Below, one piece after another: positions 6,416 to 13,037 of a DNA stretch of 64,000 nt (its first letter is position 1; each line of letters begins with the position of its first letter). The DNA comes from Bryobacteraceae bacterium (GTDB lineage Bacteria > Acidobacteriota > Terriglobia > Bryobacterales > Bryobacteraceae), in NCBI GenBank assembly GCA_025056455.1, contig JANWVY010000006.1, positions 1 through 64,000 of the forward strand, read 5' to 3'. The translations under genes and the position numbers were made by a program. The notes beneath the pieces were generated by a model. The model was not told the DNA's origin and did no database searches. It was given only the letters and a program-made list of their open reading frames with translations.

Positions 6416-9400
6416 CTAAAACTCCAATCGCAAGCCAGTGCGTAAAGCGCGCGGGCCTGAGGCATCCAGCGAAGATACGCCGCCCACGCCGGTAATCACC
6501 CCAACTTGACCGGCCTGCACAATGTTGGTGCCCGGGTTCGCCCAGTTTGGCGTGTTGGTCACGTTCGTGCCCGTTAGTTCCCAACGCAAGCGCGCTCGTT
6601 CCCGGAAGCTCACGGTCTTGGCCACCCCTCCGTTGAGGACGATCGAACCTGGACCCTTAATCACACCCTTGGCGGAAGTGCCAAAGCGGCCTTGCGCTGG
6701 CGCGCTGAAAGCCGAAACATCGAACCATCGGTTGACCGTGCGGTCGGCGATGTTGGCGTTTCGCAGGTGATCGGGGCGAATCGTGACTTGCGCGGGAGTC
6801 CGGTTGGGAGTGAAGGCCGTTCCTGTCGGATCGGGCCCTGTCCAGAGCGGGGTGAGGAATTGACCCGAATACGTACTGAAGACGGCGTTGAGTTCCCAGC
6901 CTGAGGCCAGCGCGCGCACCAGTGGACGAGCCCCGCTCAGCCATTTCCGCCCCCGTCCAAAGGGCAATTCCCAAAACATGTTGCCCGTCACGCGATGGGT
7001 TGGAATGTCGAGCCAGACGGCGCGCTCGCGTCTGCGATCAAAAGCGTCCTCAGGGCTTTCGCCGCGCTCCAAGTCCCCGATGTCGCGAGCCCAAACCCAG
7101 GAAAGCTGCCAGGCAAGACCACGGGCATAACGCCGCTCGGCTTCTAAACTCAGAGCATGGTACTGGTGACCAGCGCCGTTGGTGATGTACGTGATTGCTG
7201 GGAAACGCGGGAAGGGACGCGGTTTGTCCACAAACACACGCCCGTCCGGCACGGGCTGGTTGGCGTTGTAGCCAAACTCACCCTGGCGGGTGTTGGTGCC
7301 AATGTAAGACGCCCGAAAGCCAGTGTTCCATCGCTCGTGTTCAATGGTGACGTTGTACTGCATGGAGTAAGGATTGCGCAGGGAAGGATTCACGCCGCTT
7401 GGCAAGGTGATGGTGGTTGGGCCTGCGACGGATTCGGGAAAGACGCGCGGGAAAAGCAGCGTGGGCACGGGAGTAGGATTGGTGAACGAGGGTTCGTTGA
7501 CTACAAAAGGCGCCCCGCCAGCCCCTGCCGCCCGCGTGATGGTGTCGTAGAAGATGCCATAGCCGGTGCGGAAGACCGTGCGGTTTGAGAAAGGACGCCA
7601 CGCCAAACCGAAGCGCGGCGCCCAGTTGGTCCAGTCGTTGCGGAGCAGCAGCCGCGAATGATATCCAAGCGAGCTCGCTTCCACAATCTCAACATAGTCT
7701 CTGGGCATCAAAGGGCTGATTTGATTCAAAGCGCCATCGGGCACGACGATCTTGCCTGCCACAATGTCAAATACGGCCTGCCGGTCGTTGGCCTCGCTCC
7801 AGGCGGGCTTGATCTCGTAGCGCAATCCCAGGTTGAGCGTGAGCTTTGGGGTCACCTTGTACTCATCCGTGATGAAGAAGTCCCAAGCGTTACGTAACCG
7901 GTCAACCAGAATGGCGGGCGCCTGACGCGACGCCGTTGTGGGGATCCCAAGGAGAAAGTCCGCGTAAGGATGTCCGGTGAAGCGATTGGAGAAGTTGACG
8001 CTTCCAAACAAGGCGGTGGGCATATTGCGATCGCGGAACTGAGTGCGGTTTAAAACGGCTCCCAACTTGATGTTGTGCTTGCTGCGGAACCACGAGAGGT
8101 AATTCTGATACTGCTGTGCGTTGTTTTCAAAGCCCGGATGTCGCCAGTCGGTTTGACTTAATCCGGTGAGTCCGATGCCAGCAAACGAAACGCGGAACAG
8201 ACCGTTGATGTTCGGCAAGTTGTCTAATAAGCCCGTGATGCCAAGATCGCGCACGACCTCCTGGCCCATCAAAGGACCATTCCGCGGATTGTTGTTATAA
8301 GCGTAGCCCCATCGAAATTCATTGATGAGGTTGCTGCGCAGCGTTGCCGTGTAGGAGAGGTTCAAAGCCCTGGTGTCACGGGTTTGCCAGCGACGCCCGA
8401 TTGCCGGCAGATTCCCTTCGTACTCGCGGGAGTGGGAGCGGTTCCAGGTGTAACGTCCAAAGATAAAGTGGCGATCATTGAAGCGGTGATCGATGCGCGA
8501 GGTCCAGTAGGTGTTGGGATCGAATGGCCGCGAAAGTTGTTCCCGGTAGTTCTGCGCCCGGAATGTTTCTGGGTCTGGTTGATTCGGGAGGGGAAAGAAG
8601 CGCTCTTGAATCCGTCGCGACACGCTGCTGATGCGCGATGCGGGGATGATGTTGCCGGAGAAGGGGGCGTTATTGGCGAAAGGATCGCGAACCACGGTGC
8701 CCGGAGCAAGACGGGAAAAGTCACCCCCGCGCCAGGAGGGTGGCGCCACCGTGGGATCGAGTAACTGCAACACCTGGCTTCCGCGCGAGGTTTCAAACGA
8801 ATAGAAGAAAAACGTTTTGTTGCGCCCGTTGTACAGCTTCGGTAGGTAGATCGGGCCGCCAATGGCCGCACCAGGCTCGTGCCGTACGCCCGTACCGCGC
8901 TGCGCGGCAAAAGGATTTCGAGAACGGAACCAGGGTGTCGAATAATAATCAAAACCGACACCATGCAGCTCATTGGTGCCGCCCTTCGAAACAATCGTCA
9001 CCTGTCCAATGGCTCCAAATTCGGCCGTGTTGTTGGCCATATCGATCCGAACTTCCTGAAAGCTCTCAATCTGTGAGACGAGTGGCGAGATCTGCGTTCC
9101 GTCCCAACCGTTCGAAATGGTGATACCGTCAATCGAGGCGTCAGACTGGTTCAGGCGGCTACCAGAAAAGCGCCGGTTCGCTGACCCAGCCCCCGCTTGA
9201 ACCACACCCGGCGACAACCCTATGAAGTTCCACAACGAACGCGTGTTGAGCGGAAGTACTTTGAGTTGCATGGCGCTTTTGGAATCGCTAATGCGCGCGG
9301 TTTCGGTTTCAATTAGCGCTCCCTCTGCCCTGACCTCGACCTTGGTATCGACCGAGCCAACTTCCAGCTTGATGTCGATTCGCCGCACGTCGAGAGAAAC

Positions 9401-9673
9401 GAGCTCGATGCGTGGAATGAACACTTCTTTGAATCCGTCCATTTTTACCCGGAGCGAATAAACGCCTTCTCGCAGCTGCGCCAAAGTGTAATTCCCAGCA
9501 TCGTTCGAAACCGACGTATAGGAGTAGTTGGATTCCAAATGAACGGCTGTCACTTTGGCCCCGGACACGACGGCGCCTGTCTGGTCGGTGATATTCCCGG
9601 TAATCGAGGCAAAGGTCGTTTGCGCCTGAATTGCGGGCGCAACCAAAAACACGAGCCACAAAAGCTTCGACAC
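6416..9673 (-). CDS. Oar-like TonB-dependent outer-membrane receptor with carboxypeptidase-regulatory domain
   Basis: 1085 residues from a GTG with a GGGGGTG ribosome site. A signal peptide (about 1-18, ending AIQAQ) is followed by a carboxypeptidase-regulatory-like beta-sandwich (about 20-110: ITGNITDQTGAVVSGAKV, then a GNYTLAQLREGVYSLRV strand pair), a plug region and a long beta-barrel that ends in RLEF, a terminal phenylalanine typical of Bam-assembled barrels. This architecture is the Oar/SusC-like group expanded in Acidobacteriota, presumed to take up oligosaccharides, peptides or other large ligands. The substrate cannot be read from sequence. It is transcribed towards the CRISPR operon, and its leader contains a possible hairpin next to the ribosome site (9674-9702). 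No SusD-like partner is adjacent. Confidence 0.92.
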   Translation of the reverse strand: MSKLLWLVFLVAPAIQAQTTFASITGNITDQTGAVVSGAKVTAVHLESNYSYTSVSNDAGNYTLAQLREGVYSLRVKMDGFKEVFIPRIELVSLDVRRIDIKLEVGSVDTKVEVRAEGALIETETARISDSKSAMQLKVLPLNTRSLWNFIGLSPGVVQAGAGSANRRFSGSRLNQSDASIDGITISNGWDGTQISPLVSQIESFQEVRIDMANNTAEFGAIGQVTIVSKGGTNELHGVGFDYYSTPWFRSRNPFAAQRGTGVRHEPGAAIGGPIYLPKLYNGRNKTFFFYSFETSRGSQVLQLLDPTVAPPSWRGGDFSRLAPGTVVRDPFANNAPFSGNIIPASRISSVSRRIQERFFPLPNQPDPETFRAQNYREQLSRPFDPNTYWTSRIDHRFNDRHFIFGRYTWNRSHSREYEGNLPAIGRRWQTRDTRALNLSYTATLRSNLINEFRWGYAYNNNPRNGPLMGQEVVRDLGITGLLDNLPNINGLFRVSFAGIGLTGLSQTDWRHPGFENNAQQYQNYLSWFRSKHNIKLGAVLNRTQFRDRNMPTALFGSVNFSNRFTGHPYADFLLGIPTTASRQAPAILVDRLRNAWDFFITDEYKVTPKLTLNLGLRYEIKPAWSEANDRQAVFDIVAGKIVVPDGALNQISPLMPRDYVEIVEASSLGYHSRLLLRNDWTNWAPRFGLAWRPFSNRTVFRTGYGIFYDTITRAAGAGGAPFVVNEPSFTNPTPVPTLLFPRVFPESVAGPTTITLPSGVNPSLRNPYSMQYNVTIEHERWNTGFRASYIGTNTRQGEFGYNANQPVPDGRVFVDKPRPFPRFPAITYITNGAGHQYHALSLEAERRYARGLAWQLSWVWARDIGDLERGESPEDAFDRRRERAVWLDIPTHRVTGNMFWELPFGRGRKWLSGARPLVRALASGWELNAVFSTYSGQFLTPLWTGPDPTGTAFTPNRTPAQVTIRPDHLRNANIADRTVNRWFDVSAFSAPAQGRFGTSAKGVIKGPGSIVLNGGVAKTVSFRERARLRWELTGTNVTNTPNWANPGTNIVQAGQVGVITGVGGVSSLDASGPRALRTGLRLEF

Positions 9674-10861: not shown

Positions 10862-11491
10862 CTACAGGCGAGGTGGCGTCGTGATCACTATGGCTTTGGC
10901 AGGCTTCCTCGCGGAGTAAGAATGCGGCTCTGAGGAGTCGAAATATACGCTATCGCCTCGTCGCAAAACATGCGTCTCATGTTGAAAAGTGATTGCGAGT
11001 TCCCCCTCCAGCATAAACAGAAACTCAGCCCCTTCATGGTAGTGCTCCGGAGTTTCCCGGTTGGTTACGGGAAACTCAGCAAGATAGGCCTGAAGACCTT
11101 TCTCCTGGGCCGAGAAGGCTAAAACTTCGAAATAGTAATTTGGGGTTGGATTGTCCGCGCGATCGGGAAAACGCATCCGTTCTTTGGCTCGCACAATGGA
11201 GAACAGCTTCCTGCGCCGCTTGTCCGCAAAAAAGTAATCCAGACCTACATCGAAGACCATGGCAATGCGAGCCAGCGTGGGCAGTGTGGGCACGAGCTTG
11301 CCGTTCTCTAGCTGCGAGAGCATCGACGCCGACAGGCCCGTGTGCTTTCCAAGATCAACTAGCGAGATTTTTTTTCGCAAGCGCAGCATGCGGAGTTTGT
11401 TGCCCAGCTCGTAAGAGGAAAGCACGCGCGTGATGGTCTGCTCACTGGTCTCTTGGGGAGCTGCTTCGCGGGTCCCTGTTTCAACAATCAC
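10862..11491 (-). CDS. XRE-family transcriptional regulator with C-terminal cupin sensor
   Basis: 209 residues. A helix-turn-helix of the XRE type (about 28-85, with KISLVDLGKHTGLSASMLSQ as the core) is followed by a cupin_2 domain (about 130-208) with the HYHEGAEFLFMLEGEL and GDSVYFDSSEPH motifs. The histidines and glutamate there could bind a metal, as in SutR/PuuR-like regulators. The start is a GTG with no ribosome site. A TAAAAT -10 box ends only 7 bases upstream, so the mRNA may be leaderless. It is divergent from an ECF sigma factor, and the shared region holds repeated AGCTAAA-type half-sites. Autoregulation and control of the sigma factor are the likely roles. The ligand is unknown. 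Confidence 0.88.
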   Translation of the reverse strand: MIVETGTREAAPQETSEQTITRVLSSYELGNKLRMLRLRKKISLVDLGKHTGLSASMLSQLENGKLVPTLPTLARIAMVFDVGLDYFFADKRRRKLFSIVRAKERMRFPDRADNPTPNYYFEVLAFSAQEKGLQAYLAEFPVTNRETPEHYHEGAEFLFMLEGELAITFQHETHVLRRGDSVYFDSSEPHSYSARKPAKAIVITTPPRL

Positions 11492-11498
11492 AAAAATG

Positions 11499-11528
11499 AT
11501 TTTAGCTTAGCTCAAATCCGATCGGCAA
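11499..11528 (-). promoter_or_regulatory. Candidate leaderless promoter of the XRE-cupin gene
   Basis: Read on the minus strand, TTGCCG (11523-11528), an 18-base spacer and TAAAAT (11499-11504) form a sigma-70-like promoter. The expected transcription start falls at or within a base or two of the GTG start codon at 11491, which also lacks a Shine-Dalgarno sequence. Confidence 0.5.
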
Positions 11529-11558
11529 TTTTCTATATAGCTAAATTGAAATTTAGCG
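11499..11558. promoter_or_regulatory. Four half-sites (AGCTAAAWT type) between the regulator and sigma factor
   Basis: Site A (11499-11517) is ATTTTAGCT-T-AGCTCAAAT, an imperfect inverted repeat that covers the regulator's -10 box. Site B (11539-11558) is AGCTAAATT-GA-AATTTAGCG, with a perfect 8+8 core. All four arms resemble AGCTAAAWT on one strand or the other, and two arms in the same orientation begin exactly 30 bases apart (11509 and 11539), about three helical turns. This is the arrangement expected of cooperative binding by the adjacent XRE protein. Confidence 0.5.
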
Positions 11559-11599
11559 ACGCCTGGAAATTTCCGTCCTTCCTTGCTACCTTGAAGTTG

Positions 11600-11620
11600 G
11601 GTCGTTAGTTGGTAACGACC
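11600..11620 (+). promoter_or_regulatory. Perfect 8-bp stem-loop just upstream of the sigma factor start
   Basis: GGTCGTTA-GTTGG-TAACGACC is a perfect 8-bp inverted repeat with a 5-base loop, ending 4 bases before the GAGGGG ribosome site (11625-11630) of the sigma factor. It could be an operator or an mRNA hairpin that tunes ribosome access. Confidence 0.45.
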
Positions 11621-11633
11621 AATGAGGGGCCCG

Positions 11634-12254
11634 ATGAAACCAGAGTTAAACAACTTGAGCTCCCTAGGTGATGACCAGCTTGTCGTGCTGGCTCAAGGGG
11701 GCTACGATCCCGCCTTTGCCGAGTTGATACGGCGACACCAATCTTCGTGCCTAAAGCTCGCGATGTCGATTCTCCGCGACCGATCGGATGCGGAAGATGA
11801 AGTGCAGAACGCTTTTTGGAAAGCGTTTGAACATCTCGGACAGTTTCAACGCGACGCGCGGTTCTCCACATGGTTGACGCGCATTGTGGTGAACCAGTGT
11901 CTGATGAGATTGCGACAAACGCGCCGAGCGAAGTTCTTATATTTGGATGACGCGATGATTGGAGACGAGGTAGGCACGCTCGAACTTCCGGCGCCGGAAC
12001 AGACGCCCGAACAGGAGCTGGGTAAACAGGAAGTGGCGAACCTGCTTCGAAAGGAAATCCGCCGCATCCCGCCGCTATTGCGGAATGTGTTTCTGCTCCG
12101 CGACGTACAGCAGCTGCCGATGCCTGATGTGGCCAAACAGCTGGGCATCTCGGTGGCCGCAGCAAAGTCTCGTCTTCTTCGCGCGCGTTTGGAGCTACGC
12201 TCCCGCCTCGCTAAGCATCAAGGGCGGCTGGGCCCAGCAACGCTGACGGCGTGA
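11634..12254 (+). CDS. RNA polymerase sigma factor, ECF subfamily
   Basis: 206 residues. I chose the ATG at 11634 because GAGGGG lies four bases before it; the in-frame ATG at 11622 would leave no ribosome site. Region 2 (about 25-95) holds FAELIRRHQ, the SDAEDEVQNAFWKAFEHL core-binding helix and FSTWLTRIVVNQCL. Region 4 (about 137-195) holds RNVFLLRDVQQLPMPDVA and GISVAAAKSRLLRAR. There is no region 3, so it is a group 4 (ECF) factor. No anti-sigma factor gene is adjacent. The next gene is a sirtuin, and the divergent neighbour is an XRE-cupin regulator, which may control it in place of a membrane anti-sigma. Confidence 0.92.
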   Translation: MKPELNNLSSLGDDQLVVLAQGGYDPAFAELIRRHQSSCLKLAMSILRDRSDAEDEVQNAFWKAFEHLGQFQRDARFSTWLTRIVVNQCLMRLRQTRRAKFLYLDDAMIGDEVGTLELPAPEQTPEQELGKQEVANLLRKEIRRIPPLLRNVFLLRDVQQLPMPDVAKQLGISVAAAKSRLLRARLELRSRLAKHQGRLGPATLTA

Positions 12255-12296: not shown

Positions 12297-13037
12297 ATGG
12301 ACTCTGAGTTGGAGCTAGCGCTCCACTGGCTGAGTCAAGCCAACCACGTCGCCGTATTGACGGGGGCAGGAATTTCCGCCGAGAGCGGTATACCTACCTT
12401 TCGCGGGCCGGATTCGAGATGGCGCGGTTGTCTCCCGGAACAACTCGCCTCACCTGAAGCTTTCAAACACAATCCCCGGCTTGTTTGGGAGTGGTACGAT
12501 TGGCGCCGGGGCTTGATTGCAGGCTCTGCGCCGAATCCGGGCCACTACGCCCTTGCCGCACTCGAGGCCCAGCTTTCCGACTTCACCTTGATCACCCAGA
12601 ACGTCGACGGTCTGCACGCGCGTGCGGGTAGCCAGCAGATTCTCTGCCTGCACGGCGACATCTGGACGCTGGCCTGCACCGCGTGCGGCTGGTCGGGACG
12701 GAATGAATCGCCCCAGATTCGCCCGCTGCCGCCATCCTGCACGTGCGGGGCGATTTTAAGGCCTGGCGTAGTTTGGTTCGGAGAGAGCCTTCCGAGCGAT
12801 GTGTGGTCCCAGGCGCTTCAGGCTGCGCAGCGAGCCGAAGTGTTTCTCGTGGTTGGTACGTCCGCTGTTGTGATGCCGGCCGCCTCGCTAGCCTCTCTCG
12901 CGCAACAGCATGGCGCCAAGGTGATTGAAGTCAACAACCAAGCTACGAGGCTCAGCTCGCAGGTGGATGTTGTTTTGCGCGGCTCCGCCAGTGAGATTCT
13001 GCCTCGCCTTGCTGCTGGCCTCCGGTCCAAGCTCTAA
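12297..13037 (+). CDS. cobB: NAD-dependent protein deacylase of the sirtuin family
   Basis: 246 residues. Removes acyl groups from lysines with NAD as co-substrate. The Rossmann motif GAGISAESGIPTFRG (23-37), the QNVDGLH motif (101-107), the catalytic histidine in LHGD (H119) and a zinc ribbon (C127, C130, C148, C150) are all present. WYDWR at 66-70 supplies the Y-x-x-R pair (Y67, R70) that in SIRT5 and bacterial CobB binds succinyl and malonyl carboxylates, so desuccinylase activity is likely besides deacetylation. It follows the ECF sigma gene by about 40 bases but may have its own promoter. No acyltransferase or acetyl-CoA synthetase is adjacent. Confidence 0.93.
   Translation: MDSELELALHWLSQANHVAVLTGAGISAESGIPTFRGPDSRWRGCLPEQLASPEAFKHNPRLVWEWYDWRRGLIAGSAPNPGHYALAALEAQLSDFTLITQNVDGLHARAGSQQILCLHGDIWTLACTACGWSGRNESPQIRPLPPSCTCGAILRPGVVWFGESLPSDVWSQALQAAQRAEVFLVVGTSAVVMPAASLASLAQQHGAKVIEVNNQATRLSSQVDVVLRGSASEILPRLAAGLRSKL

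Follow-up and report, generated by a model that had tools for sequence, protein, structure and literature searches.

Palindromes beside their own genes are bound by the Pseudomonas XRE-cupin proteins ErfA, PsdR, PauR and others, which are described as local regulators (PMC7901475). ECF sigma factors are mostly held by anti-sigma proteins, and control is obscure for many of the groups that have none. Setting the transcription of the sigma factor gene itself, with no anti-sigma protein, is a known if less common way of controlling an ECF, exemplified by HrpL (ECF32) and SigE (ECF39); it has also been proposed for ECF203, with TetR regulators, and for ECF234, with two-component systems (PMC8999054). 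In a search of the open-licence PMC literature, no paper on the control of an ECF by an XRE-cupin protein came up.

The locus described here lies in a stretch of 64,000 nucleotides (the window) at the start of contig JANWVY010000006.1, from the genome of a Bryobacteraceae bacterium (GCA_025056455.1; 4.98 Mb, 29 contigs). Two divergent genes, for an XRE-cupin regulator and an ECF sigma factor, are separated by a short interval, which, judging from its conserved sequence, is probably a pair of divergent promoters governed by the XRE-cupin protein, with the ECF set at the level of transcription. The features are the following (window coordinates; half-site means are out of 7 in 68 aligned orthologous loci):

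10862-11491, minus strand: XRE-cupin transcription regulator, 209 aa, GTG start, HTH_3 and Cupin_2 domains.
11499-11504, minus strand: TAAAAT, the regulator's -10 box, 7 nt ahead of its GTG; columns -41 to -36 and -34 are conserved to differing degrees in the 68 loci.
11500-11506, minus strand: half-site R1, GCTAAAA, overlapping the regulator -10 box; offset -40, mean 5.78.
11510-11516, plus strand: half-site L1, GCTCAAA, in the spacer of the regulator promoter; offset -30, mean 5.34.
11530-11536, minus strand: half-site R2, ATAGAAA, weak in the window (5 of 7); offset -10, mean 5.10.
11540-11557, no strand: predicted main operator, perfect palindrome GCTAAATT-GA-AATTTAGC, made of half-sites L2 (11540-11546) and R3 (11551-11557).
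11564-11569, plus strand: weak -35-like TGGAAA of the ECF promoter.
11584-11592, plus strand: extended -10 of the ECF promoter, TGCTACCTT, 26 nt past the palindrome.
11600-11620, plus strand: perfect stem GGTCGTTA-GTTGG-TAACGACC, where the ECF mRNA is predicted to begin.
11622-12254, plus strand: ECF sigma factor, 210 aa if counted from the first ATG, with Sigma70_r2 (1.2e-15) and Sigma70_r4_2 (4.3e-12).

An earlier note, made from the letters of the window alone, had named both proteins, and profile searches agree with it on each. The regulator, with Pfam matches to HTH_3 (1.1e-11) and Cupin_2 (4.1e-16), couples an N-terminal XRE HTH to a C-terminal cupin domain, which is the layout of the XRE-cupin local regulators. 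The second protein has the two Sigma70 regions listed above (2 and 4) and no further Pfam domain, and scores 101.7 bits against TIGR02937 (cut-off 42.9). Its likelier start is the ATG at 11634, which has GAGGGG ahead of it and is preferred over that at 11622. Within the cupin domain H150, H152, E156 and H190 are invariant in 22 orthologues, which we take for the HxH, E, H pattern of the metal site in classical cupins. Because the protein combines a cupin domain with four invariant residues of the metal-ligand type, we regard it as a putative ligand sensor, with a putative metal-dependent ligand site. A structure model (mean pLDDT 77.9, pTM 0.47), used for the fold only, retrieved 1Y9Q first (TM-score 0.40), with HppE, a metal enzyme, also high. 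The same 1Y9Q, the solved structure of an HTH_3-family regulator from Vibrio cholerae, is the best sequence match over both domains (1.9e-18); on our reading of the alignment it differs in being without the second of two conserved histidines. PuuR (NCBIfam NF007408) is the best NCBIfam match and has the same domain layout, but at 53.5 bits against a cut-off of 211 the regulator is not classed as PuuR.

The four half-sites reported in the earlier note are all found where it had placed them, at 11499-11507 (ATTTTAGCT, the reverse of AGCTAAAAT), 11509-11517 (AGCTCAAAT, one mismatch), 11539-11547 (AGCTAAATT) and 11550-11558 (AATTTAGCG, one mismatch), and the direct copies at 11509 and 11539 are, as it said, exactly 30 bp apart. 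Its count has to be raised to five, since the profile of orthologous loci adds R2. Its proximal pair was said to cover the regulator's -10 box: this holds for R1, which coincides with TAAAAT at 11504-11499 and can be explained by that box alone, while L1 falls in the spacer. The main palindrome is a perfect 8-2-8 arrangement, and its halves L2 and R3 (offsets 0 and +11) have means of 6.19 and 5.88. Exact AGCTAAA occurs 4 times in the window with 4.16 expected, and the count of exact 7-mers was dropped as evidence, being at chance level. Among 1000 Markov resamples of the 142-nt region, 26 contain a perfect 8-bp palindrome with a spacer of 0-6, so that one of this quality is only moderately rare. 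A matrix derived from 62 sites of other loci placed 11540 first among the 63,983 positions of the window, at 14.3 bits (next best 11.7), a score reached in 8 of 5000 resamples. The 7-mer by itself proves nothing, and it is because the arrangement is conserved that we rate it above chance.

Relatives of the regulator were gathered from three sources: a set of 151 genomes, 40 of which gave a match; the 399 genomes of the class, of which 146 did (paralogues are counted in both figures); and GTDB contigs (the best 80 of 128 loci). The named loci closest to that of the window belong to records of Bryobacterales and other Acidobacteria. From 136 loci we obtained 85 distinct upstream regions (Bryobacterales). 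Two GTDB records titled 'Arcobacter sp.' and 'Nevskia soli' (loci L117 and L091) bear the Bryobacterales locus, and these titles look wrong. The palindrome exceeds 6 bits in 78 of the 85 regions, with an 18-base consensus of about RCTGAAAYNAYTTTCAGT. A common register could be set for 68 regions; the other 17, some of which look like the same layout with altered spacing, were excluded from the column counts. Half-sites were profiled over 106 offsets and both strands of the 68 aligned loci, which revealed exactly five peaks, at -40 (reverse), -30, -10 (reverse), 0 and +11 (reverse), with means of 5.1-6.2 out of 7 over a background of 2.2-2.5; no other offset reaches 4. As the alignment had used offsets 0 and +11 only, the peaks at -40, -30 and -10 are independent evidence. 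The repeats from -40 to -10 and from -30 to 0 are each exactly 30 bp, and the same five offsets, and no others, stand out in the 48 loci that are less than 60% identical to one another (mean pairwise identity 41%).

Summed over the five offsets, the module score (out of 35) has a median of 28 in the 82 loci with an ECF and is 30 in the window, while 99.9% of pooled shuffles score below 24.3 and the rest of the 64 kb does not exceed 23. On the reverse strand there is a score of 28, which by our identification is the module itself read backwards, because four of its five half-sites are symmetrically arranged. The earlier note had offered conservation between orthologous intergenic regions as a check, and the half-sites are indeed conserved in them: this is a real, widely conserved control module. 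A predicted palindromic operator thus lies beside the regulator's own gene, as is typical of the XRE-cupin local regulators. In 13 of the 68 loci the 18-mer situated 30 bp before the main palindrome also exceeds 6 bits as a second palindrome; that of the window scores -8.9. Loci L128, L131, L132, L135 and their relatives have, at a distance of 30 bp, a further palindrome that is nearly complete; relative to other loci, it looks as though one half-site had shifted by 9 bp. No significant covariation between the palindrome halves was detected in 9 column pairs from 66 distinct sites (lowest p 0.17), and hence the matching change in both halves of the window's palindrome is a single case that lends no support.

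We considered whether the conserved letters of the module are the N-terminal coding sequence of the regulator rather than an operator. The regulator frame is open through the palindrome in 39 of the 68 loci, and in some loci an ATG lies 117 nt before the conserved codon. However, a stop closes the frame in 29 of the 68, with similar palindrome scores (15.1 vs 16.4), the palindrome is found in all three phases (41, 10 and 17 loci), and at least 48 of the 68 loci have a start codon 5-15 nt past a -10-like hexamer, near the conserved protein. The closed frames and the three phases led us to reject this explanation, which is scarcely credible. In the window the regulator has about 10 extra N-terminal codons (11453-11491) relative to many orthologues, and the module is displaced by the same 30 nt, lying 87 nt from the conserved codon vs the commonest 57. 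This displacement equals the repeat spacing of the half-sites.

The module is accompanied by a persistent gene neighborhood: a divergent XRE-cupin/ECF pair, with the ECF within 600 nt, is found at 82 of the 85 distinct upstream regions. In the 399 genomes of the class, counted by hand with a threshold of at least 299 bits, 54 have an orthologue of the regulator; all 54 have the ECF, 53 of them back to back on one contig. Two further genomes have the ECF and no regulator orthologue, one of them (G408) at a contig start, where the 122 nt available upstream of the ECF are uninformative. The three regulator loci with no adjoining ECF are L112 (at a contig end), L133 and L140, with module scores of 26, 24 and 21, the last being matched by 6 of 200 shuffles. 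XRE paralogues at 20 loci, 44-54% identical, showed no ECF match in the 3.7-8.7 kb fetched around them, and so the pairing is not general to all such regulators. Four paralogous XRE-cupin genes (L179, L184, L186, L187), none with an ECF, share an upstream element, TTTACAGTNAAA, with looser forms in neighboring loci; it has the look of another operator used within this protein family.

Genomes in which the pair is broken bear on an alternative by which the module would serve only the autoregulation of the regulator, with the ECF as a bystander. Each place was compared with 200 shuffles. In G058, where the two genes are separated, the module is kept both at the regulator (25) and at the ECF (27), with none of the 200 shuffles as high for either, which counts clearly against a bystander; this genome is a draft with 6% contamination, and its two contigs might stem from two organisms. 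G449, with 24 at the regulator and 24 at the ECF (0 of 200 shuffles as high), points the same way weakly, as both values are near the 24.3 limit. The third split genome, G357, favors the bystander: the module is present at the regulator (25) and at neither copy of the ECF (18 and 20; 149 and 36 of 200 shuffles as high). For control of the ECF in trans, the split cases therefore comprise one that supports it clearly, one that supports it weakly and one that lends it no support. In G057, which has the ECF orthologue and, in place of a regulator orthologue, a 49% identical paralogue only, the region upstream of the ECF scores 19, at background (144 of 200 shuffles); this again argues against the bystander, as does the conservation of the gene pair and of the -10 phase described below. 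The ECF upstream region of G027, a 62% complete genome with no regulator match, scores 20 (15 of 200 shuffles as high). ECFs only 37-43% identical, taken as negative controls, gave background scores of 17-19 (two places were fetched twice). Even though two of the five half-sites lie in the regulator core promoter, we consider a bystander role for the ECF improbable.

The module stands at a rigid distance from each of the two promoters. On the regulator side, the GTG begins 7 nt past TAAAAT and hence the mRNA is probably leaderless. The R1 columns also serve as the extended -10 of the regulator in the 68 loci, and R1 and L1 both lie inside its core promoter. This placement predicts the self-repression that the earlier note had proposed, and autorepression is the part of the regulatory scheme that we hold most likely.

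On the ECF side, the strict extended -10 element TGNTANNNT (TGnTAnnnT) is present in 36 of the 68 loci, at exactly 26 nt past the palindrome in 35 and at 27 in one, and missing from 32; 3.7 loci would be expected to have it anywhere in the scanned stretch. The -35 is not conserved among the 68 loci. The ECF could alternatively drive its own promoter, with TGAAA in L2 as the -35 and CT(A/G)G as the -10, these being the letters of ECF-type promoters used for the comparison. Indeed, CT(A/G)G occurs at +23 to +26 (window 11563-11566) in 18 of the 68 loci, compared with 0-3 for any other offset in the range +18 to +43. Nevertheless, conservation is stronger for TGNTANNNT, which 35 of 68 loci have at one offset and which is present in 13 of those 18 loci, and L2 of the window reads GCTAAAT, not TGAAA. 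Self-driven transcription is thus very unlikely. Further downstream, the stem at 11600-11620 is found in 3 of 207 loci, all three being copies of the window's own place. The stretch 11598-11640 folds strongly (-17.2 kcal/mol, z -3.75), pairing bases of the GAGGGG ribosome-binding sequence, and possibly reflects extra translational control, or chance.

With start sites predicted by setting them 7 nt past each -10, the center of the main palindrome falls at about -50 of the ECF promoter and about -57 of that of the regulator. None of the five conserved offsets lies within the ECF core promoter; on its upstream side, the closest half-site stops 6 bp short of the -35 position. The earlier note had the regulator repress the ECF as well as itself; as stated this is unsupported, the conserved sites all being upstream of the ECF core promoter. 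The palindrome at about -50 and the 6 bp separating the nearest site from the -35 would allow activation as well as repression. Activation, which the geometry favors, comes close to an even chance in our judgment; repression, favored by the precedent of local inhibitors in the family (PMC7901475), is a serious possibility; and an effect in neither direction is unlikely. The ECF would be transcriptionally controlled if either of the first two holds.

The strongest competitor of the arrangement preferred below is double repression, in which the regulator would occlude both promoters and its ligand would lift both; it differs only in the direction of the effect on the ECF. The XRE-cupin regulators characterized in Pseudomonas aeruginosa are inhibitors, most likely through promoter occlusion (PMC7901475), and a complex on 11500-11557 might get in the way of RNA polymerase where the ECF promoter has its upstream boundary. 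Set against this, in the 68 loci the stretch from the palindrome to the ECF start region has none of the conserved half-site offsets, and the rigid 26-nt phase to the -10 would be unnecessary for simple occlusion. We therefore regard double repression as possible, though well short of probable.

The absence of an anti-sigma gene next to the ECF, noted earlier from the window alone, was borne out by each scan. The next gene in the window (at 12297) is of the Sir2 family, and no anti-sigma gene was found beside the ECF. The HxxxCxxC motif is absent from all 71 first downstream ORFs across loci (with crude, longest-first ORF calling), and among the 25 commonest of the 90 Pfam families matched by the downstream ORFs there is no anti-sigma family; 73 of 138 ORFs were sent to Pfam, with spurious-looking ones and many near-duplicates omitted. 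In the whole genome zf-HC2 has 11 matches, 8 of them over the cut-off, and the nearest on the contig is about 155 kb off and below the cut-off. An anti-sigma factor at an unlinked place, or one of another kind, is still conceivable. The gene set 3' of the ECF is variable: on similarly crude ORF calls, phoH-/ybeY-like genes are found in 26 of 81 loci and corC-like in 25, the names ybeY-like and corC-like being our reading and PhoH being backed by Pfam in 17 of the 73 ORFs. On the other side, two genes beyond the regulator (6416-9673), the window encodes a large outer-membrane barrel protein with a carboxypeptidase-regulatory domain; of 81 loci, just 6 have a similar ORF, in scattered positions.

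We also searched for further sites. The window's own genome has no other place within 2 mismatches of the palindrome, and with up to 3 mismatches allowed, 12 forward matches compare with 9 for the control. A loose palindrome pattern gave 2 matches in this genome vs 2 for the control, with no sign of a larger regulon, and in 23 genomes 10 forward matches vs 11 for the control, with any match in 7 of the 23. In 1 genome of the 23, the window's, the pattern recovered the site at the regulator/ECF pair, so that it misses most native sites and the test is weak. A larger palindrome regulon was set aside, with matches at the control level in this weak test.

Taken together, these observations suggest the following scheme. 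Dimers of the regulator would bind the palindrome at 11540-11557 and, probably together with it, the partial sites at 11500-11536, about three helical turns off. The bound protein would cover the regulator's own -10 and spacer and thereby repress its own gene, and the same complex, situated directly upstream of the ECF promoter with its poor -35 and its rigidly positioned extended -10, would set the transcription of the ECF. A metabolite or metal bound by the cupin domain would switch the complex, and the sigma factor would be governed by the amount made and not by an anti-sigma protein. In its fullest form, which we put forward only tentatively, a cupin sensor of the metal type would act from a helically phased module as a two-faced switch, repressing itself and activating the ECF, in place of an anti-sigma factor in much of the family, and in trans where the genes separate. 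For a large lineage of soil bacteria that has been little studied, the anatomy of the locus points to a likely controller, to its sites and to both promoters. If the scheme is true, the reach of XRE-cupin regulators would extend from metabolic operons to a sigma factor, with a possible two-step cascade.

Comparison with the known systems brings out what is shared and what is distinct. The Pseudomonas regulators likewise combine an XRE and a cupin domain with a palindromic site and an adjacent target; they have 1 to 12 binding sites each, and autoregulation is suspected there (PMC7901475). Their targets are mostly metabolic genes and their neighbors mostly enzymes or transporters, with sigma factors unmentioned in the accessible part of the source (PMC7901475), whereas here the neighbor is an ECF in 82 of the 85 distinct regions. 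HrpL, SigE and the proposed cases ECF203 and ECF234 resemble the predicted state of affairs at this locus in that the output of an ECF is set through transcription of its gene under another regulator (PMC8999054). There the controller is an enhancer-binding protein, a two-component system, a TetR protein or a further ECF (PMC8999054), while here the candidate is a one-component XRE-cupin protein.
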